Source: Phycisphaeraceae bacterium (GTDB lineage: Bacteria; Planctomycetota; Phycisphaerae; Phycisphaerales; UBA1924). From it: DNA of 64,000 nucleotides. Shown here one piece after another: positions 36,464-46,010 of the stretch (position 1 is its first letter; each line of letters begins with the position of its first letter). The translations under genes and the position numbers were made by a program. Under the pieces are notes generated by a model that made no database searches, had not been told where the DNA came from, and saw only the letters and a program-made list of their open reading frames with translations. Location: the NCBI GenBank assembly GCA_021297895.1, contig JAJTHN010000024.1, positions 1 through 64,000 of the forward strand, in the 5' to 3' direction.

Positions 36464-37495
36464 TCAAAACAACCCCTCTTCAACATTCGTCGGCACCGGC
36501 AGTCCCAGGTGCTCCGCCCCGGCGCGGGTCAGCATCCGACCCCGCCGCGTGCGCACGAGATGGCCGATCTGCAGCAGGTACGGCTCGACAACATCCTCAA
36601 GCGTTCGCGCGTCCTCGTTCATGGTCGCGGCGATCGCCTCGACCCCCGCCGGGCCGCCCTTGAATACGCCGCTGAGCGTGCGCTGATACTTGCGATCCAG
36701 TTCATCCAGCCCGAGCTCGTCGACGCCCTCGAGCTCAAGGCTCTTGCGCACCAGATCCATGCTCAGCGATCCGCCGCCCTTGACCTGCGCATAGTCGCGC
36801 ACGCGCCGGAGCAGGCGATTGGCGATCCGCGGCGTGCCGCGGCTGCGACGGGCGATCAGCGCTAGCGCCTCGCCAGACTTGCCCGTCACGCTCATGCCCA
36901 GCAGCCCCGCGCTGCGGGTGAGAATCGCCAGCAGTTCCGCCTCGCTGTAGAACACAAGATGATGCGCCAGCCCGAAGCGCGATCGCAACGGCGAGCTGAT
37001 CAGCCCCGCTCGCGTCGTCGCGCCGATGAGCGTGAACGGCTTGAGCGTGATCTGCACCGTCCGCGCGTGCAGCCCGCTGTCCACCGGCACATCGATCCGG
37101 AAGTCCTCCATCGCCGGGTACATGAACTCCTCCACCGCCGGCGGTAGCCGATGAATCTCATCGATGAACAGCACATCGCCCTGCTCGAGCTGCGTCAACC
37201 GGCTGACAAGGTCCGTCGCCTTGCTCAGCACCGGGCCGCTGGTGATGTACACGCGCGTCCCCATCTCCGCGCCGATGACGTGCGCAAGGGTCGTCTTGCC
37301 CAGCCCGGGCGGGCCGTGGAGCATCACGTGCTCCATGGGCTCGGAGCGTTGCAGCGCTGCGCGGATGGCGATCTCCAGCCTGCCGATCAGGTCGGCCTGG
37401 CCGATGTACTCGCCGATGCGTGTCGGGCGCAGCGCCCAGTTGGCCGACTCTTCGCCGGCCTGTTCGCTCCCCGAAACGACGCGCTCAATGGCCAT
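36464..37495 (-). CDS. ruvB: Holliday junction branch migration helicase RuvB
   Basis: AAA+ ring motor that drives Holliday junction branch migration with RuvA. Walker A HGPPGLGKTT (60-69), Walker B VLFIDEIHRL, sensor/arginine-finger region LIGATTRAGLISSPLRSRFG and the C-terminal winged helix ending in RRGRMLT are all present; 343 residues is normal. ruvA and ruvC are not adjacent. No ribosome site, but TACACT ends six bases before the ATG, suggesting a leaderless transcript. Confidence 0.97.
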   Translation of the reverse strand: MAIERVVSGSEQAGEESANWALRPTRIGEYIGQADLIGRLEIAIRAALQRSEPMEHVMLHGPPGLGKTTLAHVIGAEMGTRVYITSGPVLSKATDLVSRLTQLEQGDVLFIDEIHRLPPAVEEFMYPAMEDFRIDVPVDSGLHARTVQITLKPFTLIGATTRAGLISSPLRSRFGLAHHLVFYSEAELLAILTRSAGLLGMSVTGKSGEALALIARRSRGTPRIANRLLRRVRDYAQVKGGGSLSMDLVRKSLELEGVDELGLDELDRKYQRTLSGVFKGGPAGVEAIAATMNEDARTLEDVVEPYLLQIGHLVRTRRGRMLTRAGAEHLGLPVPTNVEEGLF

Positions 37496-37525
37496 GCTTT
37501 GAGTGTACCCGATCGGCCCGCAGGC

Positions 37526-39166
37526 TCAGCGTTTCGTGCCCGGGCGCGCCCCGCCTCGGTTGCCCCCACCCGGCGACGCGGCGTCGGGCTGCTCCGTGCT
37601 CGTCGGCAGGCCGCGCTGCTTCCACAGTTCGCGCAGCGCCTCGGGTGTGATCGGCACCCGCACCGAGCCCGTCGGCATCTCCATGCGGATCAGATTGCCC
37701 TCCGCGTCGTAGCGACCGTCCTGAGGTTGGAACTCTTCGCGAAGACGCGTGCTGATCCGCCAGACTTTCTCATCCAGCGGGTCCGGGCGAGCATCATCCC
37801 GGCGCAGAGCGATGGTCTCGGTGTCGCTCCGCCACGCGTAGAAGCCAACTTCGGTGCCCAGTCGCAGGCGCGTCAGCAGCCGCGGCAGAACCTGCACCTC
37901 AAACTGATTGATGTACCCCGGCCCCTGGATCATCGGCCGCAGTTCCCGCGGCGGGCGGCCCGGCGCATTGATGCTGATCGACAGCGTGTTGCCCGTGCGC
38001 GCGCCGGTCTCCGTCCACACCCCGGGACGCTCGCTCCCCGGCTCACGCACGATCGTGCGAACGCTCCACGCCTCCTGCGCGCGATCAGCGCTCATGAAAC
38101 TCGTCGAGTCGCTGTCGATGATCCGAAACGCCGACGGGCTCGTTCGCTCGATCAGCCGCAGCGTCACACGGACGAGATATCCCGGCGGGTTGTCCGGCGT
38201 ATCGGGCAGCGGCGTCTCCGCGCGCCCGGCGACCTCGCTCCGCCGCCCGTTCCAGAACTCGACGCGCTGGTAGCCCTGTTCCAGGTCCTCCAGCACGGTC
38301 CCCTCGGCGGTTGTCGCGCCGGGTCGGAAGATCCGGTACCAACGCTCGGCATCGGCGCTCGCACCCATCGCCGCGGCGTAGTCCTCCGGCCTGAGCCCCC
38401 GCAGCATCGCATCGCCAGCAAGCACGGCATCGCGACGCGCGGCGACGATTCGCATCGGGTCCTCGATGCGCAGCGTCGCGGTCATCAACTCAAAGGCCCG
38501 ACGGGCGATCTCGTAGTGGTCCTTGGAGCACGTCAGCGTGAGGACGATGAGCTGCCCTTCCATGGGCATGAACAGCGTGCACCCCTCGATTGTGGGTGAT
38601 GCTGAGCCGCTGGAGGGGAGTTCAACATAGAACCGATGGCCCGGGGTCTCGCTGCCGGCGATCTTGAGTTCCGGGACTCTTCCGAGCAGTTTCGCAGTAG
38701 ATCCGAGCTGTTTCCCCGAAGATGCATCACGAACGGCGGTAGCCAGTGCGTAGCGTTCCAGGATCCGATCGGCCGCCGCGGCGACTGTTGCGTCGACTTT
38801 CTCGCCGGAAACTGAGCCGATCGTGATCAAAAAGGTCTGATCCCGCGGCACGATCCGGGCCTCGATGCTGCCGCCGACTTCGCTCACGGTGGCGGTGGTG
38901 TCGACGACGAGCTGCATGGTCAGGCCGAGGCTCTCGATCCGGACGATCTCGTCGCTGAGCATCAGCGTGCTCGGGTCAAGTCGGGCAGCAGCCGGAGCAG
39001 AAGTAGACTGTCTGTCTGTTTCTGGGTTCGGTGATGCCGGCGGCGTGGGCTCCTGGGCGATGGACAACGGGGCCCCAAGGAGTAGAAGGCACAGGATGAG
39101 TGATCGGAGGGTTCCGCAAGAGGCGGAGCGATGGCCGAGGATGGGGCGTGGCAGCATGGGGTACAT
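37526..39166 (-). CDS. Exported hypothetical protein
   Basis: A 546-residue protein with an N-terminal signal peptide (SLILCLLLLGAPLSIAQ, about 22-38) and no membrane helix later. The mature part has alternating beta-rich segments (IEARIVPRDQTFLITIGSVS) and an Arg/Pro-rich C-terminus ending GGARPGTKR. No motif is recognised. It lies 30 bases upstream of ruvB on the same strand, but the two are probably transcribed separately if ruvB is leaderless. Start may be ATG 39166 or 39157. Confidence 0.68.
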   Translation of the reverse strand: MYPMLPRPILGHRSASCGTLRSLILCLLLLGAPLSIAQEPTPPASPNPETDRQSTSAPAAARLDPSTLMLSDEIVRIESLGLTMQLVVDTTATVSEVGGSIEARIVPRDQTFLITIGSVSGEKVDATVAAAADRILERYALATAVRDASSGKQLGSTAKLLGRVPELKIAGSETPGHRFYVELPSSGSASPTIEGCTLFMPMEGQLIVLTLTCSKDHYEIARRAFELMTATLRIEDPMRIVAARRDAVLAGDAMLRGLRPEDYAAAMGASADAERWYRIFRPGATTAEGTVLEDLEQGYQRVEFWNGRRSEVAGRAETPLPDTPDNPPGYLVRVTLRLIERTSPSAFRIIDSDSTSFMSADRAQEAWSVRTIVREPGSERPGVWTETGARTGNTLSISINAPGRPPRELRPMIQGPGYINQFEVQVLPRLLTRLRLGTEVGFYAWRSDTETIALRRDDARPDPLDEKVWRISTRLREEFQPQDGRYDAEGNLIRMEMPTGSVRVPITPEALRELWKQRGLPTSTEQPDAASPGGGNRGGARPGTKR

Positions 39167-39300
39167 GGTAGTGATCGCAAAGGGTCCGGGTGTGGAGAGA
39201 GCCGCGGCGAAACGAGTAATAATTGGGTGATGTTAGGATTCTGCGAGTAGCTCGGGGGCAGATGGAGAGTGGGGAGGGTGTGGATGTTCCACATGGGACG

Positions 39301-39328
39301 TTGACATTGGCGGGCGGACCTCTATGCT
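39301..39328 (+). promoter_or_regulatory. Promoter of the S10 ribosomal protein operon
   Basis: A perfect -35 TTGACA (39301-39306) and -10 TATGCT (39323-39328) at 16-base spacing; the best sigma-70-like promoter I saw. The expected start near 39335 leaves a leader of about 235 bases before rpsJ, long enough for regulatory structure. The rest of 39167-39569 shows no convincing gene. Confidence 0.68.
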
Positions 39329-39569
39329 TCCCTCCCTGCCGATCGGCGTACGCGCCGGTTGTGTCGATTGGCCCGGCGGTCGCGCGAGCGACGAAAGCTG
39401 GGCCGAGCGGCGAGTTGAGGCGACTTTGTTCTGGCGGATGCCGGGGCGAGTTGAGCAACGGGTGCGACGCGAAGGATCGCGGGCACCGGCGGGGGTCGTA
39501 CCCACTGATGTGTGTACGAAGCAGTGATCGACGAGGACCGGAAGCCGGCTTGTAGACCGAAGGAAGCGC

Positions 39570-39875
<306 letters not shown>

Positions 39876-39880
39876 CTTCC

Positions 39881-39905
39881 GCGACCCGCGCCGTGCGCGG
39901 GTCGC
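39881..39905 (+). other. Intercistronic hairpin rpsJ-rplC
   Basis: A perfect 11-bp stem (39881-39891 with 39895-39905) with CGT loop, six bases after the rpsJ stop, followed by TGTGTTTG. It could be a partial terminator or mRNA stability/processing signal, making S10 more abundant than its downstream neighbours. Confidence 0.55.
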
Positions 39906-40097
39906 TGTGTTTGCGGAACGTGACTTTGCAGGAGGATTCGCGGCGGAATGGGATCGATCGTGCGGCGGGCGGGCAAGGGCCCAGGCCGGCCGCGAAAGGC
40001 GAACGTTGACTCCGACTCAACCTCTGGCCCGATCGATCAGAACCAACGACGCGAAGTGATTGACGCCGTCGCGGACGGCGAGGAAAGGTGACGGAAC

Positions 40098-40790
40098 ATG
40101 AGCCTGATGCTGCTTGGAACCAAACTGGGAATGACTCGCGTGTACCGCGAGGACGGCGTGAATGTGCCGGTGACGGTGATCCAGCTCGGCCCGTGCACCG
40201 TGACGCAGATCCGCACCGCTGAGAAGGACGGCTACTCGGCCGTTCAGATCGCTTTCGGCAGCATCAAGCCCCGCAACAGCACGCAGGCCGTCATCGGCCA
40301 TGACGCGAAGGCCGGCATCGAGGCCAAGCGCTACCACCGCGAGTTCCGCTGCTCGGCCGACGACGCGGCGAAGTTCAGCGTGGGCCAGACGCTCACCGTC
40401 AAGGACCTGGAAGGCCAGATGTTCGTCGACGTGACGGGCACCAGCAAGGGCAAGGGCTTCCAGGGCACCATGAAGCGTCACAACTTCAAGGGCATGTTCG
40501 CCTCGCACGGTACCGAGCGTAAGCACCGCTCGCCGGGCTCCATCGGCTCGCTCTGCTCCAACCGCGGTTTCGGCGGCGGTCTGAAGAAGGGCAAGAAGAT
40601 GTCCGGCCACATGGGTGCCGAGCGCGTGACGATCCGCTCGCTGGACATCGTCCGCATCGACGCTGATCAGAACCTGCTGCTGGTCAAGGGTCCGGTCCCC
40701 GGCGCCAACCGCGGCATGGTGATGGTGCGTCGCGCCACGCGTCTGTACCGCAGCAAGGCCAACAAGGTCGCGGGCAAGAAGCCCGAGTGA
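40098..40790 (+). CDS. rplC: 50S ribosomal protein L3
   Basis: A 230-residue large subunit protein near the peptidyl transferase centre. MLLGTKLGMTRVYREDG, KGKGFQGTMKRHNFKG and RSPGSIGSLCSNRGFGGGLKKG are canonical L3; the GMVMVRRA region near the C-terminus is intact. It lies 222 bases after rpsJ, a very large gap for this operon. Confidence 0.98.
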   Translation: MSLMLLGTKLGMTRVYREDGVNVPVTVIQLGPCTVTQIRTAEKDGYSAVQIAFGSIKPRNSTQAVIGHDAKAGIEAKRYHREFRCSADDAAKFSVGQTLTVKDLEGQMFVDVTGTSKGKGFQGTMKRHNFKGMFASHGTERKHRSPGSIGSLCSNRGFGGGLKKGKKMSGHMGAERVTIRSLDIVRIDADQNLLLVKGPVPGANRGMVMVRRATRLYRSKANKVAGKKPE

Positions 40791-40799
40791 GTGAGTGAT

Positions 40800-40821
40800 C
40801 GCGGTCCCGGCGTCGGGGCCG
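40800..40821 (+). other. Intercistronic hairpin rplC-rplD
   Basis: A 9-bp stem with one T-G wobble (40800-40808 with 40813-40821) and GCGT loop, just after the rplC stop. No T-run follows, so it is unlikely to be a simple terminator. Confidence 0.4.
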
Positions 40822-41115
40822 CTTAAGGAACACAGGAGTTTGGAATCGAGTCTTGTCGGTCGGCCGGGAGTCACATCGGCCGCCGAGTCCGGAAGGGTCA
40901 GACGGGGCGGAAGCTTCGAACGACAACCACCGGACAAAAACAAGCAGATGTGCCCCGATCAGACTCAGAGCGGGGCGAGTATGCCGAGTCGAATCCTTCC
41001 CGATCACACGCCACCGCGAGGTGCCGGATCGGGCGGATAGGCAAGCAAGGGTCCGGAGCGGAATCCGGACAGTTCGCGGCCCGCGTGCCGCAAGGCGTCA
41101 GACGAGAGAAGACTT
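40822..41115 (+). other. Long non-coding spacer before rplD
   Basis: With the hairpin before it, this is a 325-base gap between rplC and rplD, which are normally adjacent. Inside it a 7-bp hairpin (GTCCGGA at 41051-41057 with 41064-41070, loop GCGGAA) lies 45 bases upstream of rplD. It could be an L4-type autoregulatory leader; that is inference. Confidence 0.35.
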
Positions 41116-41802
41116 ATGCAAGTCCCCGTCCACAACATGCAGGGTTCCCAGGTGGGAACGATCACGATCGATGAATCCCTGCTCGGCCCGGATATCAATC
41201 ACGCGCTGATCAAGCAGGCATACGTTCGCTATCACGCGAACACCCGTCAGGGTTCGGCCCGCACGCTCAATCGTCGCGAGGTCGAGGGCTCGAGCAAGAA
41301 GATCTACAAGCAGAAGGGCACGGGCAACGCCCGTCACGGCGACCGTCAGGTCCCGAGCATGAAGGGCGGCGGTCACGCCAAGGCCAAGCGCAAGACGCGC
41401 GAGGACTACCGCCTGGACATGCCCAAGAAGATGCGCCGCAAGGCCAACCGCAACGCCCTTCTGGCGAAGCTGGTCGACAACGAGGTGCGTGTCATCGACA
41501 CCCTCGGGCTGAAGGCTCCCAAGACCAAGGACATCGTCACGTTCCTGTCGGCGATCAAGGTCGACAAGACCGCGCTGCTGGCGGTTCCCTCCAGCGAGGT
41601 GAACATCCGCCGCGCGGCCCGGAACCTCGAGACGATCAAGCTGTGCAAGCCCGACAGCCTGAACTGCTTCGACATGCTCAACAGCAGGTTCCTGGTGATC
41701 TCCAAGGCCGATCTGGAGGCGTGGCTGAAGGGTCCGAGCTCGCAGACGGGCAAGGACGCGAAGGTGAACCCGATGGGCGCAGCGAAGGCGGAGGCGAAGT
41801 AA
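41116..41802 (+). CDS. rplD: 50S ribosomal protein L4
   Basis: A 228-residue protein lining the peptide exit tunnel; in some bacteria it also represses its own operon. SARTLNRREVEGSSKKIYKQ and KGTGNARHG identify L4. The usual FGPxPR loop segment after the tunnel-lining GGG is replaced by GGGHAKAKRKTREDYRL. The C-terminus is extended (GKDAKVNPMGAAKAEAK). Confidence 0.95.
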   Translation: MQVPVHNMQGSQVGTITIDESLLGPDINHALIKQAYVRYHANTRQGSARTLNRREVEGSSKKIYKQKGTGNARHGDRQVPSMKGGGHAKAKRKTREDYRLDMPKKMRRKANRNALLAKLVDNEVRVIDTLGLKAPKTKDIVTFLSAIKVDKTALLAVPSSEVNIRRAARNLETIKLCKPDSLNCFDMLNSRFLVISKADLEAWLKGPSSQTGKDAKVNPMGAAKAEAK

Positions 41803-41805
41803 ATC

Positions 41806-42096
41806 ATGGCTACCAAGATCGACGCGACGTACATCATCAAGAAGCCGCTGCTGACCGAGAAGAGCACGATCGCTTCCAACGAGCTCAACCGCTACACGTT
41901 CCAGGTGGACCTCAAGGCCACCAAGGGCGAGATCAAGAGCGCGGTCGAGAGCCTGTACAAGGTACAGGTTGAAAAGATCAACACGCAGGTCCGCAAGGGC
42001 CGCGATCGTCGGTATCGCTACGGCCTGCTGCGTGCGACGCCGACGAAGGTCGCCCATGTGCGCCTGAAGGAAGGCCAGAAGATCGAGTTGGTCTGA
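41806..42096 (+). CDS. rplW: 50S ribosomal protein L23
   Basis: A 96-residue protein at the tunnel exit, docking site for trigger factor and SRP. IIKKPLLTEKSTIASNELNR, TFQVDLKATKGEIKSAVE and KVEKIN-type segments match L23. Three bases separate it from rplD, so the two are translationally coupled. Confidence 0.96.
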   Translation: MATKIDATYIIKKPLLTEKSTIASNELNRYTFQVDLKATKGEIKSAVESLYKVQVEKINTQVRKGRDRRYRYGLLRATPTKVAHVRLKEGQKIELV

Positions 42097-42200
42097 TCGA
42101 GTTGGTCTGATCGGACGCAGAGCGTGATCAGGTCTGAACGAACCGTGAACTGAACCGTTGCCAGAAGCGACGGACGAACGAAACGAACGAAGAGGCACCC

Positions 42201-43061
42201 ATGCCCATCCGCATCTACGACAAGACCAGCGCCGGCCGCCGCTTCTCGAGCGTGAACCTCAACACCGAGGTCACGAAGTTCGAGCCAGAGAAGTCGCTGA
42301 CCCGTCCGCTGCCCAAGACCGGTGGCCGCAACCACCACGGCAAGATCACCTCTCGCGGCCGCGGCGGCGGCGCCAAGCGGCTCTACCGCGTGATCGACTT
42401 CCGTCGCGCCGACCGCGACGGGATCGAGGGCACGGTGGTCGCCGTCGAGTACGATCCCAACCGCACGGCGCACATCGCGCTGGTCGAGTACGCCGATAAG
42501 GTCAAGCGCTACATCCTGGCCCCCGTCGGCCTGAGCGTCGGCGCGAAGATCATCGCGACGAGCCGGACCGCGGCGGACCCGAAGGTCGGCAACAGCATGC
42601 CGCTGAAGTACATCCCGACGGGTCTGTCGGTGCACTGCGTCGAGCTGCGTCCCAACGGCGGCGGGCAGATGTGCCGCAGCGCGGGGATGTACGCCCGCCT
42701 GACCAACCGCGAGGGCAACTACGCGACGCTGGTTCTGCCTTCTGGCGAAGTTCGCATGGTGCACGTCGAGTGCCGCGCGACGATCGGCGAGGTCGGCAAC
42801 GCCGATCAGCAGAACGTCCGCTGGGGCAAGGCCGGCCGCATGCGTCACCTTGGCCGCCGTCCGATCACGCGTGGCGTGGCCAAGAGCCACAACGCCCACC
42901 CGCTGGGTGGCGGTTCGGGCCGCAGCAAGGGCAATCGTCCGCCGTGCTCGCCGACGGGCGTGCTGGCCAAGGGCGGCGATACGCGGAACAAGAAGAAGCA
43001 CAGCACCAAGATGATCCTGCGTCGTCGCGTGAGCACGCGTTACGGCCAGAAGACCAAGTAA
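42201..43061 (+). CDS. rplB: 50S ribosomal protein L2
   Basis: A 286-residue protein essential for subunit association and peptidyl transfer. GGRNHHGKITSRGRGGGAKR, VEYDPNRTAHIALVEYADKVKRYI and the C-terminal HPLGGGSGRSKGNRPPCSPTG (the catalytic-centre histidine region is kept) are canonical. Confidence 0.98.
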   Translation: MPIRIYDKTSAGRRFSSVNLNTEVTKFEPEKSLTRPLPKTGGRNHHGKITSRGRGGGAKRLYRVIDFRRADRDGIEGTVVAVEYDPNRTAHIALVEYADKVKRYILAPVGLSVGAKIIATSRTAADPKVGNSMPLKYIPTGLSVHCVELRPNGGGQMCRSAGMYARLTNREGNYATLVLPSGEVRMVHVECRATIGEVGNADQQNVRWGKAGRMRHLGRRPITRGVAKSHNAHPLGGGSGRSKGNRPPCSPTGVLAKGGDTRNKKKHSTKMILRRRVSTRYGQKTK

Positions 43062-43140
43062 TTCGGGAACGGAACGTCACGAGACATGAACCGGGGCGCG
43101 GAGAACCGCGGGCCCTGCAAAGAAGACCAAGGAAGCACGC

Positions 43141-43452
43141 ATGAGCCGCAGCACGAAGAAGGGTCCGTACGTTGATGAGCGTCTGTACCGCCGGGTTGAG
43201 AAGCTCAACCAGTCGGGCAAGAAGGAAGCGCTCAAGACGTGGCGTCGGGCCTGCACGATTGTTCCGGAGTTTGTCGGGCACTCGTTCAAGGTTCACAACG
43301 GACGTGCGTTCATCGACGTGTTCGTGACCGAGGACATGGTCGGACACAAGCTGGGCGAGTTCAGCCCGACGCGGACGTTCAAGGGCCACACCAACAAGAA
43401 GGAAGGCCTGGCGGACGGCGCCAAGGCGCCCGCGGCCCCGGCCAAGAAGTAA
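43141..43452 (+). CDS. rpsS: 30S ribosomal protein S19
   Basis: A 103-residue head protein that contacts A-site tRNA with S13. [32 protein letters not shown] and [15 protein letters not shown] are typical. It carries a short Ala/Lys-rich C-terminal tail of about ten residues. Confidence 0.97.
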
Positions 43453-43553
43453 GGTCGGCACCGGCGAACGGTTCGGGCCGGCGGAGATGGTGGCGGGGGA
43501 GTATCGATCGGCAGAGTCAAGGCAGCAGCACTTCAGAAACGACGGAGCATCCA

Positions 43554-44099
43554 GTGCGAATTCACGGAGCCAATTTGAGCCAGGTCGCCCAGAGCAAGGG
43601 CATCAGCGCCGAGCAACTGGCCGAGAGCATTGTGCGGACGGGCCTTCCCAAGTCGCGCTCGCTGTCGGCGGTGAAGAACTGGATGAAGGGCCGCGACCAC
43701 CCGCGTTGCCGGGCTTCGGACATCACCAAGATGGCCGAGGTTCTGGGCGTCGCGCCGGCGGACATCGCCCGCTTCACGTGCATCCTCAAGTACCATCGCG
43801 GCTCGCCCCGCAAGGCGAACCTGCTGGCGCAGCTGATCCGCGGCAAGGACATCATCACGGCCGAGAACCTGCTGACCTTCACGACCAAGCGCGCGGCGCT
43901 GGACGTGAAGAAGGCGCTGGTCAACGCCCGCACCGACGCGGAGCAGGCCAACGCCGACCTGGACAAGCTGTTCGTCAGCGAGTCGCGCGTCGATGAGGGC
44001 CCGATGATGAAGCGCTTCCAGCCCAAGGACCGCGGGCGTGCGCACCGGATTCTCAAGCGTCAGACGCACATCACGGTGAGCGTTGAGCAGCGGGCGTAA
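43554..44099 (+). CDS. rplV: 50S ribosomal protein L22 fused to an N-terminal Cro/C1-type HTH domain
   Basis: A 181-residue protein from GTG 43554, which has GGAG six bases upstream. Residues about 73-181 are L22 (KYHRGSPRKANLLAQLIRGK, ALVNARTDAEQANADLD, DRGRAHRILKRQTHITV) that lines the exit tunnel. Residues 8-72 are not ribosomal: LSQVAQSKGISAEQLAE, SLSAVKNWMKGRDHPR and DITKMAEVLGVAPADIARF follow the five-helix XRE/Cro-C1 pattern, with the recognition helix around S38-W43. Typical L22 is about 110 residues. The extra domain is in the same frame without stop and starts right after the ribosome site. Confidence 0.93.
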   Translation: MRIHGANLSQVAQSKGISAEQLAESIVRTGLPKSRSLSAVKNWMKGRDHPRCRASDITKMAEVLGVAPADIARFTCILKYHRGSPRKANLLAQLIRGKDIITAENLLTFTTKRAALDVKKALVNARTDAEQANADLDKLFVSESRVDEGPMMKRFQPKDRGRAHRILKRQTHITVSVEQRA

Positions 44100-44224
44100 G
44101 GACAGAGCAGAGCAAGGTCGGCACAGCACAAGAACGCCGAACCGGACACGCTGAACACAGACACACGGACGCGCTTGGGCAGAGCCCCCGGCGCACCTGA
44201 GAGAAAGAAGCAAAGGGCAAGTTC

Positions 44225-44929
44225 ATGGGACAGAAGACTCACCCCTATGGCCTCCGCGTCGGCATCACCGAGCCTCACAAGAGCCGGTGGTACGCGCCCA
44301 AGTCGATGTTCGGCGAGTTGCTCGTTGAGGACTACCGCATCCGGCAGTTCATCGACAAGCGGCTGAACCGCAAGCCGCCGTACGCCGCGGTCAGCGATGT
44401 GCAGATCGAGCGCACGCGTGAGGAGCTGAAGGTGATCGTCAAGTCGGCCCGTCCGGGCCTGGTCATCGGCCCCAAGGGCGCCGAGGTCGACCGGATCACG
44501 GAAGAGCTGCAGTACATGACGGGCCGCAAGGTCTCGATCAGCATCATCGAGGTAAAGAACCCCGATATGGATTCGCAGCTGGTCGCCGAGGGCGTGTGCG
44601 AGATGCTCCGCAAGCGTCAGGCCTTCCGCCGCGCGATGAAGATGAAGGCCGAGGCCGTGATGCAGGCTGGGGCCAAGGGTGTCTGGATCGTTCTGGCCGG
44701 CCGTCTCGGCGGCGCCGAAATGTCGCGAACGCTAGATGTTCGCATGGGCGCGCTGCCCCTGAGCACGCTGCAGGCGAACATCGACTACGGCTTCGCCGAG
44801 GCGTTCATGAGCTACGGCGCGATCGGCTGCAAGGTCTGGATCTTCAAGGGCCTGTACGAGAAGGGCCAGAGCGACGAGCAGGAGAGCACCGCGGCGGGTG
44901 GGCGGGTCAAGAGCCGCGGCCGTCGTTGA
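44225..44929 (+). CDS. rpsC: 30S ribosomal protein S3
   Basis: A 234-residue protein at the mRNA entry site. MGQKTHPYGLRVGITEPHKS, the KH-domain signature SARPGLVIGPKGAEVDRI and GRLGGAEMSRT match S3. The C-terminus ends with a short Arg/Gly tail (GRVKSRGRR). Confidence 0.97.
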   Translation: MGQKTHPYGLRVGITEPHKSRWYAPKSMFGELLVEDYRIRQFIDKRLNRKPPYAAVSDVQIERTREELKVIVKSARPGLVIGPKGAEVDRITEELQYMTGRKVSISIIEVKNPDMDSQLVAEGVCEMLRKRQAFRRAMKMKAEAVMQAGAKGVWIVLAGRLGGAEMSRTLDVRMGALPLSTLQANIDYGFAEAFMSYGAIGCKVWIFKGLYEKGQSDEQESTAAGGRVKSRGRR

Positions 44930-45028
44930 GTCGAGCGGACGAGTGATCGATCGAGTGTGTTGAGTCGGACGTGACAGAGTGAAACCAGCGGCGACAAAGC
45001 CGCTTAGCCAACGAGCAGGAGATACGAC

Positions 45029-45448
45029 ATGCCCCTCATGCCCAAGCGCGTCAAGCATCGGAAGGAGTTCCGTCGGGTGCGCGATCGCAAGGCGACCAAG
45101 GCGAACTACGTGGCCTACGGCGATTACGGGCTGCAGTCGATGGAGCGTTGCTGGCTGCCCGGCCGCGTGATCGAGGCCGGCCGTATCGCGGCGCAGCACT
45201 ACCTCAAGCGCGAGGGAAAGCTGTTTATCCGCGTGTTCCCGGACAAGCCGATCAGCAAGAAGCCGCTGGAAACCCGAATGGGTACCGGCAAGGCGGACGT
45301 GGACTACTGGGCGGCACGCATCAAGCCGGGCACGATGATCTTCGAGATCGCCGGCGTGAGCGAGGCGGTTGCGAAGAAGGCGATGATCCGCGTGGCGATG
45401 AAGATGCCCGTGAAGACCCGCCTGGTCAGCCGCCGCGTGGTGGTCTAA
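45029..45448 (+). CDS. rplP: 50S ribosomal protein L16
   Basis: A 139-residue protein near the A-site and elongation factor entry. [32 protein letters not shown] and [20 protein letters not shown] are canonical L16. Confidence 0.97.
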
Positions 45449-45518
45449 GAGAGATTCGCGGAGCAGTCGGGGCGGGAGCGACGGGAAAGTCGGGACAGAG
45501 AAACGGACGAGTCACAAG

Positions 45519-45537
45519 CCGGACCGATCGGGTCCGG
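45519..45537 (+). other. Intercistronic hairpin upstream of rpmC
   Basis: CCGGACC (45519-45525) pairs with GGTCCGG (45531-45537) around GATCG, 17 bases before the rpmC start, so it could influence ribosome access. Confidence 0.35.
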
Positions 45538-45554
45538 AGAGCAAGGAACGAGTC

Positions 45555-45902
45555 ATGACGGGCAGCGAAGTCAAGTCGATGAGCACGGCCGAGATCAACG
45601 CGGCGATCAAGCAGACCCGCGAGAAGCTGTTCTCGATGCGCAACCAGTCGCAGACGGAGAAGATCGAGGACATCTCGCTGTTCTCCAAGTTGCGCAAGGA
45701 TGTCGCCCGGCTGATGACCGAGCGTCAGAAGCGGTACCTGGCCGACAAGGCCGCCAAGGCCCCGGCCAAGGCGCCCGCGGCGGACAAGACCCCGGGTCGC
45801 GCGGCCGGCAAGCCCGCCGCGAAGCGCTCGGGCAAGACCACCACCCGCGAGACGAGCAAGCCCAAGACCAAGTCCCGCTCCACGGCCCGCACGCAGGCCT
45901 GA
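45555..45902 (+). CDS. rpmC: 50S ribosomal protein L29 with long basic tail
   Basis: The first ~65 residues are L29 (MSTAEINAAIKQTREKLFSM and LRKDVARLMTERQKR), a tunnel-exit protein. L29 is normally 60-70 residues; here a tail of about 50 residues, rich in Lys/Ala/Thr (AKAPAKAPAADKTPGRAAGK), extends it to 115. AAGGAA lies upstream of ATG 45555. Confidence 0.92.
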   Translation: MTGSEVKSMSTAEINAAIKQTREKLFSMRNQSQTEKIEDISLFSKLRKDVARLMTERQKRYLADKAAKAPAKAPAADKTPGRAAGKPAAKRSGKTTTRETSKPKTKSRSTARTQA

Positions 45903-45921
45903 GCCAAAGCAGAGCAGAACG

Positions 45922-45946
45922 CGGCCCGGGATTGAAGCCCGGGCCG
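45922..45946 (+). other. Intercistronic hairpin rpmC-rpsQ
   Basis: CGGCCCGGG (45922-45930) pairs perfectly with CCCGGGCCG (45938-45946), loop ATTGAAG. It lies 19 bases after the rpmC stop. Confidence 0.4.
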
Positions 45947-46010
45947 AGCAGACCGCAAGCAAAACGAACACGAACGTCGGCAGATTCAGCGAACCATCCA
46001 CGAGAGCCTT

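Follow-up and report, generated by a model that had tools for sequence, protein, structure and literature searches.

A predicted helix-turn-helix domain fused to ribosomal protein uL22 in several lineages of the Phycisphaerae

Our analyses demonstrate that the fusion of a helix-turn-helix (HTH) domain to ribosomal protein L22 (uL22) is real and has been kept by selection in several lineages of the class Phycisphaerae. The starting point was a 64,000-nucleotide stretch (the window) of contig JAJTHN010000024.1 from a Phycisphaeraceae bacterium, in which a single open frame on the forward strand, 43554–44099, starts with GTG and translates into 181 residues followed by a stop. Ordinary bacterial L22 has about 110 residues; here, a predicted HTH domain spanning residue 1 to about 75 precedes a complete uL22 at residues ~76–181. 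Below, we lay out the evidence for the gene and its predicted fold, for its distribution and history, and for the competing ideas on what the added domain might do.

The gene and the predicted fold of the added domain

The fused gene sits in the S10 operon, between frames that were identified by reading as rpsS and rpsC (Table 1), and is single copy in its genome, which gave one match. Two curated family models place the protein in uL22 above their cut-offs, PF00237 (Ribosomal_L22) matching residues 78–177 with 108.7 bits (cut-off 28) and TIGR01044 scoring 90.2 (cut-off 73.65), and Foldseek matches the core to L22 of solved ribosome structures. In family match, operon place, and fold, the protein thus resembles other bacterial uL22, and it differs from them in the globular domain of about 75 residues placed in front. 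The initial annotation had described one GTG-started frame with a ribosome site in which the HTH is joined directly to a complete L22, and translation, the upstream GGAG word, and the Pfam matches confirm this.

Table 1. Features of the fused L22 gene and its surroundings in the window
Feature	Coordinates	Strand	Basis
Putative sigma70-type promoter of the S10 operon, TTGACA-N16-TATGCT, 269 nt 5' of rpsJ	39301..39328	+	sequence pattern
rpsS (S19), S10-operon gene upstream of L22	43141..43452	+	named from reading frame
Shine-Dalgarno-like GGAG, 6 nt 5' of GTG	43544..43547	+	read in sequence
XRE/Cro-C1-type HTH domain, N-terminus of L22, residues 1-75	43554..43778	+	Pfam, AlphaFold2, structure search, conservation
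Predicted recognition helix (residues 33-44) and following loop up to residue 51	43650..43706	+	AlphaFold2
uL22 core (rplV) and stop codon	43779..44099	+	PF00237, TIGR01044, Foldseek

The start is conserved among relatives. Across 72 genes of the type found in the window's own family (f1), translation begins with GTG in 58 and ATG in 14, and a Shine-Dalgarno-like word lies within 20 nt upstream in 69. An internal start yielding plain L22 was considered and rejected: 36 of the 72 have an in-frame start codon no more than 15 codons from the junction, but it is accompanied by a Shine-Dalgarno-like word in just 4, and the core has no conserved start. As the start codon and the ribosome site precede the domain, L22 is probably always translated with the HTH domain attached.

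For the fold, AlphaFold2 run on the full-length protein with a 40-sequence alignment (pLDDT 91.7, pTM 0.81) predicts helices at 5–15, 19–25, 33–44, and 54–64 and then runs straight into the first strand of L22, with almost no linker in between. Modeled alone (41 sequences), the domain takes an XRE-like fold with pLDDT 94.5, so that the structure prediction called for by the initial annotation does return an HTH. The same annotation had read a five-helix Cro/C1 pattern: the XRE-like fold is borne out by the prediction, but only four of the helices are of normal length and the fifth (68–71) is very short. In a structural second look, the best rows were XRE proteins and the XRE-like domains of two enzymes, HepD and HppE, with Z 9.7 at the top and 8.0 at row 50 (C.Csp231I 9.7, rmsd 3.9 over 70; CylR2 9.6, rmsd 2.1 over 65 residues; HepD 9.5; P22 c2 9.0; SinR and HppE 8.8), although by the tool's own warning, values below about 13 may reflect an arrangement common to helical folds. 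Foldseek alone is weak for the domain (best E 0.009).

HTH_31 matches residues 8–73 of the window protein with E 2e-4 and 22.0 bits, under its cut-off of 27; HTH_26 reaches 17.4 bits against a cut-off of 22, HTH_3 is also weaker than HTH_31, and the protein reaches the gathering cut-off of no Pfam HTH family. At E ≤ 0.01, HTH_31 is found in 18 of 40 fused homologues (best 4e-7) and HTH_26 in 11 of the 40 (best 4e-6). Membership in the HTH fold stands, then, while membership of the window protein in a Pfam HTH family does not. Given the modest Z scores and the weak Foldseek match, the XRE assignment rests on fold, Pfam, and motif taken together, and by these the N-terminal domain is predicted to be a lambda-repressor-like HTH of the XRE/Cro-C1 class. 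With the repressors C.Csp231I, CylR2, SinR, and P22 c2, it shares the predicted fold (Z 9.7–8.8), the recognition-helix motif, and weak HTH_31 and HTH_26 matches; unlike them, it is attached to a ribosomal protein, and no operator was found upstream of S10.

Purifying selection acts on the domain, the median dN/dS of the HTH being 0.23 and that of the L22 core 0.16 across 25 of 30 close pairs, which are not independent (the other 5 were excluded for too little or saturated dS) and come from a set partly found by motif, a bias touching a few codons. Since the motif used to find 52 of the 72 f1-type sequences overlaps the recognition region, we counted residue conservation in 35 own-family genomes identified without recourse to a motif: N42 is kept in 34, W43 and P50 in all 35, G46 in 32, D48 in 30, and H49 and R51 in 31 each. 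In 29 class-wide sequences, N42, W43, and P50 are invariant and G46, D48, H49, and R51 are not, D48, H49, and R51 not being retained outside f1. The mean net charge of the domain in the 35 genomes is +4.5 (range 1 to 8). Judged from the XRE pattern, N42 would be an exposed polar residue where the recognition helix faces DNA, and structural roles are possible for W43 and P50; as a set, the residues kept in the recognition helix appear compatible with nucleic-acid binding.

Distribution and history of the fusion

In the samples searched, the L22 fusion is confined to the class Phycisphaerae. Among 61 relatives, fused L22 is present in 35 of 37 own-family genomes, the exceptions (G020, 82% complete, and G032, 86% complete) giving no match at all. 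In a 201-genome sample of the order, the match begins at residue 12 or earlier in all 68 f1 genomes and in 5 of 6 genomes of family f4; outside these two families, none of the matches listed starts before residue 42. Sampled members of f2, f3, f5, and f6 match in the L22 part or little more, and a profile of the extension finds nothing in 18 genomes of these four families. One f4 genome is peculiar: in G051 (L041/L166), the extension and the L22 half lie in different frames owing to a one-base difference inside the recognition helix, which in this two-contig, 92% complete assembly may be a sequencing error or a real break.

Searches beyond the order widen the picture. The extension profile picked out 21 genomes of families f13, f18, f20, f23, and f24, belonging to other orders of the class, and all 19 loci read among them have the extension fused to L22. 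Searching 150 genomes of the class with a profile of the fused protein built class-wide gave matches in 144, which by match start divide into 30 fused and 114 unfused. The fused ones comprise f1 (8/8), f4 (1/1), f13 (1/1), f18 (3/3), f20 (9/9, a tenth genome, G294, being without match), f23 (5/5), and f24 (3/3), and the unfused span seventeen other families. Nine doubtful rows, eight from the class sample and one from the order sample, were read individually; all are unfused, with a gap of 20–102 nt. In a 44-taxon set, the L22 core begins 229–343 nt after the stop codon of S19 in fused genomes and 23–146 nt after it in unfused ones; the gap in the unfused families is too short for a separate HTH gene, which can be dismissed.

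At the level of the phylum, 246 genomes gave 12 matches: 10 belong to the class and the other two, both weak XRE matches, to f42. L22 of eight other planctomycetes lacks the extension. Phyla other than Planctomycetota were covered by a motif scan only, in which WMxG[RSN]DHPR was sought in 84,980 species genomes. The scan returned 56 loci, 54 of which continue into L22; by title, 44 of these come from Phycisphaerales, Phycisphaeraceae, Phycisphaerae, or Phycisphaera, 8 from Planctomycetota, 1 from Planctomycetaceae, and 1 from an uncultured bacterium, and some lie on the same contigs as loci of the genome samples. The two others, from a sphingomonad and a Streptomyces, are unrelated frames. The initial annotation had called for a survey across Planctomycetota, and its outcome, for the samples searched, is a fusion conserved over many species, all of them within the class. 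Chance, a frame error, or a single bad assembly is ruled out by 107 genomes (68 f1 genomes of the order sample, 12 further f1, 6 f4 with G051 counted, and 21 from other orders) together with the evidence of selection.

Stand-alone copies of the domain were sought as well. The 61 relatives hold just two weak matches outside L22 (~22 bits), and elsewhere in the phylum, there are two, the f42 matches, which lie in long frames (E 3e-6 and 8e-5). Viral relatives were rejected, as a search with the full-length model found none at E 0.001; most of the rows listed are phage HTH proteins or unnamed.

How the fusion came to have this distribution can be partly read from trees. In a species tree of 44 taxa (FastTree, 15 ribosomal proteins), f13, f18, f20, f23, and f24 group together with support 1.0; fused f1, however, stands beside unfused f3 (0.996), and fused f4 beside unfused f2, the latter with a weak support of 0.318. 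Trees of the extension only and of the L22 core (29 sequences, arbitrary rooting) each show f1, f4, and the other orders as one group apiece. A profile based on f1 and f4 detects the extensions of the other orders at E 4e-20 to 5e-10, compared with 6e-4 (61 relatives) and 3e-6 (phylum) for the best unrelated HTH proteins, and the extension joins L22 at the same point in the other orders. Separate gains of the domain look unlikely because of this profile match and the shared junction. We read the pattern as pointing either to one fusion event with several losses or to one with transfer of the 5' part of the gene, two histories that the placements of f1 with f3 and f4 with f2 do not tell apart.

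What the domain might bind

We favor, with a probability of just under one-half, a ribosome-borne binding module that would work like the HTH of Mbf1/EDF1 on rRNA. The globular part of uL22 lies on the solvent side of the 50S subunit, beside the tunnel exit, so the HTH would project there. Under this reading, uL22 with its permanently attached XRE-type HTH would be incorporated in every large subunit, and through the face of its recognition helix the module would bind either a nucleic acid (rRNA, nascent mRNA, or DNA) or a protein factor located at the ribosome surface or close to it. The HTH would then act much as the Cro/C1-type HTH of Mbf1/EDF1 does when docking on rRNA. We count in favor of docking the single, in-frame copy in the S10 operon without a conserved core start, the dN/dS ratios, the retention of N42, W43, and P50, the positive charge, the near absence of a linker, and the Mbf1/EDF1 precedent. 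In PMC7486125, the EDF1/Mbf1 HTH is described as sandwiched between helices h16 and h33 of 18S rRNA, and archaeal MBF1 HTH is cited as binding 30S and 70S.

The resemblance to Mbf1/EDF1 has bounds. Both would place a Cro/C1-type HTH on the ribosome, rRNA-bound in Mbf1/EDF1 according to PMC7486125, but Mbf1/EDF1 is a separate small-subunit factor of eukaryotes and archaea, whereas the HTH of the window would be a covalent part of a bacterial large-subunit protein. Foldseek also matches Mbf1 of a yeast disome to the domain, though weakly (E 0.075, at rank 38). The window protein does not belong to the Mbf1/EDF1 family, as it lacks the MBF1/zinc-ribbon N-terminal part; its HTH starts at residue 1 and is fused to L22.

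Against docking, we count that none of the candidate partners compared changes together with the domain. No inter-anchor segment of 23S rRNA separates 10 fused from 9 unfused genomes (the f2f5f6 group includes one f22 genome, and L250, the window's own partial 23S, is excluded), and compensation for lost rRNA was rejected, as segment lengths give no clean difference between fused and unfused. Tails of neighboring S10-operon proteins do not track the domain in the 44-taxon set; trigger factor is present in all 34 class genomes, fused or not, and uL30 (PF00327) is absent from all 34 (16 fused, 18 not), with no link to the domain in either case. Sister families live without the domain, which must therefore be dispensable to the ribosome as such, and any partner surface would differ between lineages, given that D48, H49, and R51 are conserved only within f1.

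Some features of these comparisons stand on their own. The 23S region corresponding to E. coli 1400–1612 is shortened in all 19 Phycisphaerae compared, fused or not, to 125–166 nt versus 213 nt. Two 23S genes carry long inserts, of 453 nt after E. coli position 1175 in L234 (G281, f22) and of 289 nt after position 1869 in L242 (G230, f18); these are perhaps intervening sequences or introns. In the uL30 control search, the protein was found in 13 of 14 known genomes, and the window's genome (G000) is among the 34 without it. The window's L29 (45555–45902) has an Ala/Lys/Thr-rich tail of 55 residues past the first 60, a tail that is 7–9 residues long in five other own-family genomes compared.

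A different role would be that of an autogenous regulator, surplus free L22 binding DNA or leader RNA of the S10 operon through the HTH and repressing the operon. The fold is that of repressors such as C.Csp231I, CylR2, SinR, and P22 c2, the recognition-helix residues are kept, and autogenous control by ribosomal proteins is a known theme (PMC10931766). A search for its target, which covered the S10 upstream region only, gave mixed results. Inverted repeats with 7-nt arms number 69, versus 19–41 in 8 shuffles. Of the palindromes, the most frequent one (two 4-nt arms, ungapped) occurs in 10 of 50 regions, slightly more than the 8 or fewer in six shuffles. Yet gapped word pairs in these 50 dereplicated regions are shared no more widely than in shuffled sequence (13 vs. 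12–16 in six shuffles), and aligned promoters from eight groups of close species show the −35 and −10 blocks but no common operator. The almost linker-free join, as predicted in the full-length model, would moreover leave no obvious dimerization helix.

The promoters themselves do not separate the two kinds of gene. TTGAC-N-TAnnnT occurs upstream of rpsJ in 53 of 56 f1-type loci, a rate given without a shuffle comparison; similar promoter-like sites are found in most other families, and those of fused and unfused families look alike. As the sites lie 94–394 nt before rpsJ, leaders may be long, and leader-RNA control of the S10 operon is possible. In the window, the promoter-like site leaves a long leader (39301–39570), and in the family's regions, inverted repeats are more frequent than in shuffles. 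No known RNA element was found at 36500–46000, the two Rfam rows listed falling far under their cut-offs. The suggestion in the initial annotation that the protein regulates its own operon is thus not supported so far, there being no shared operator upstream of S10 and no difference between fused and unfused promoters, and we regard an autogenous role as unlikely. The negative results for operator, 23S, tails, trigger factor, and uL30, taken together, are compatible with docking as well as with regulation.

The recognition-helix motif is an ordinary XRE consensus, and DNA could equally be the target. A broader proposal has L22 act as a nucleic-acid sensor, in which the added repressor-type domain would keep a working recognition helix and free or ribosome-bound L22 would contact specific DNA or RNA (its own operon, a leader, or the nucleoid) and so link transcription to the supply of ribosomes in the Phycisphaerae; we hold this tentatively, as somewhat unlikely. 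Another is that the ribosomal HTH would contact DNA largely irrespective of its sequence, or a protein of transcription, and so tether ribosomes to the nucleoid or translation to transcription. A basic XRE domain with its recognition-helix residues kept, on a protein of the 50S surface, would suit such a task. By textbook geometry, however, uL22 points to the exit side of the 50S subunit and away from the mRNA entry, where transcription–translation coupling takes place. Ribosomal proteins that bind DNA, bL17 and uL24 among them, are described in PMC10931766, yet we consider a tether decidedly improbable.

Finally, the domain could be an assembly aid or a decoration with no binding role, or be clipped off, similar to lineage-specific tails of ribosomal proteins. 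The XRE-like domains of HepD and HppE are not known to bind DNA, several lineages do without the domain, and some of its loop residues are lineage specific. Extensions of ribosomal proteins are, according to PMC9534751, common in bacteria and mostly of elusive function, those of Mycoplasma pneumoniae S6, L22, and L29 forming secondary structure. A mere decoration would nevertheless hardly keep N42, W43, and P50 nearly fixed class-wide or show a dN/dS far under 1, and we judge this explanation very improbable.

Known systems and significance

A bacterial parallel in kind is the extended L22 of Mycoplasma (NF008917; the M. pneumoniae ribosome), also an L22 with an added structured part, but the NF008917 model matches only the L22 part of the window protein. 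The initial annotation knew of no published description, and this held for the literature covered, which included few subscription papers: among the matches listed, none describes the fusion in its title or the start of its abstract. As far as their texts were available, PMC9534751 counts tails, its main text being without the words helix-turn-helix, HTH, Planctomycetes, or Phycisphaera; PMC10931766, on DNA-binding ribosomal proteins, names uL22 once in its text, as an early assembly protein, and otherwise in the titles of references; PMC3353972 has no word starting with L22; and the portion of PMC7203096 covered contains neither L22 nor uL22.

L22 is part of every ribosome and lines the exit tunnel. 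If such genes are annotated plainly as L22, our results suggest, the two-domain nature of the protein would go unnoticed. A conserved additional globular domain of a DNA-binding class on this protein, which whole families keep and their sister families lack, amounts to a natural experiment. It makes testable the idea of a ribosome with a nucleic-acid-binding or docking module of its own as well as the gain and loss of such a domain.
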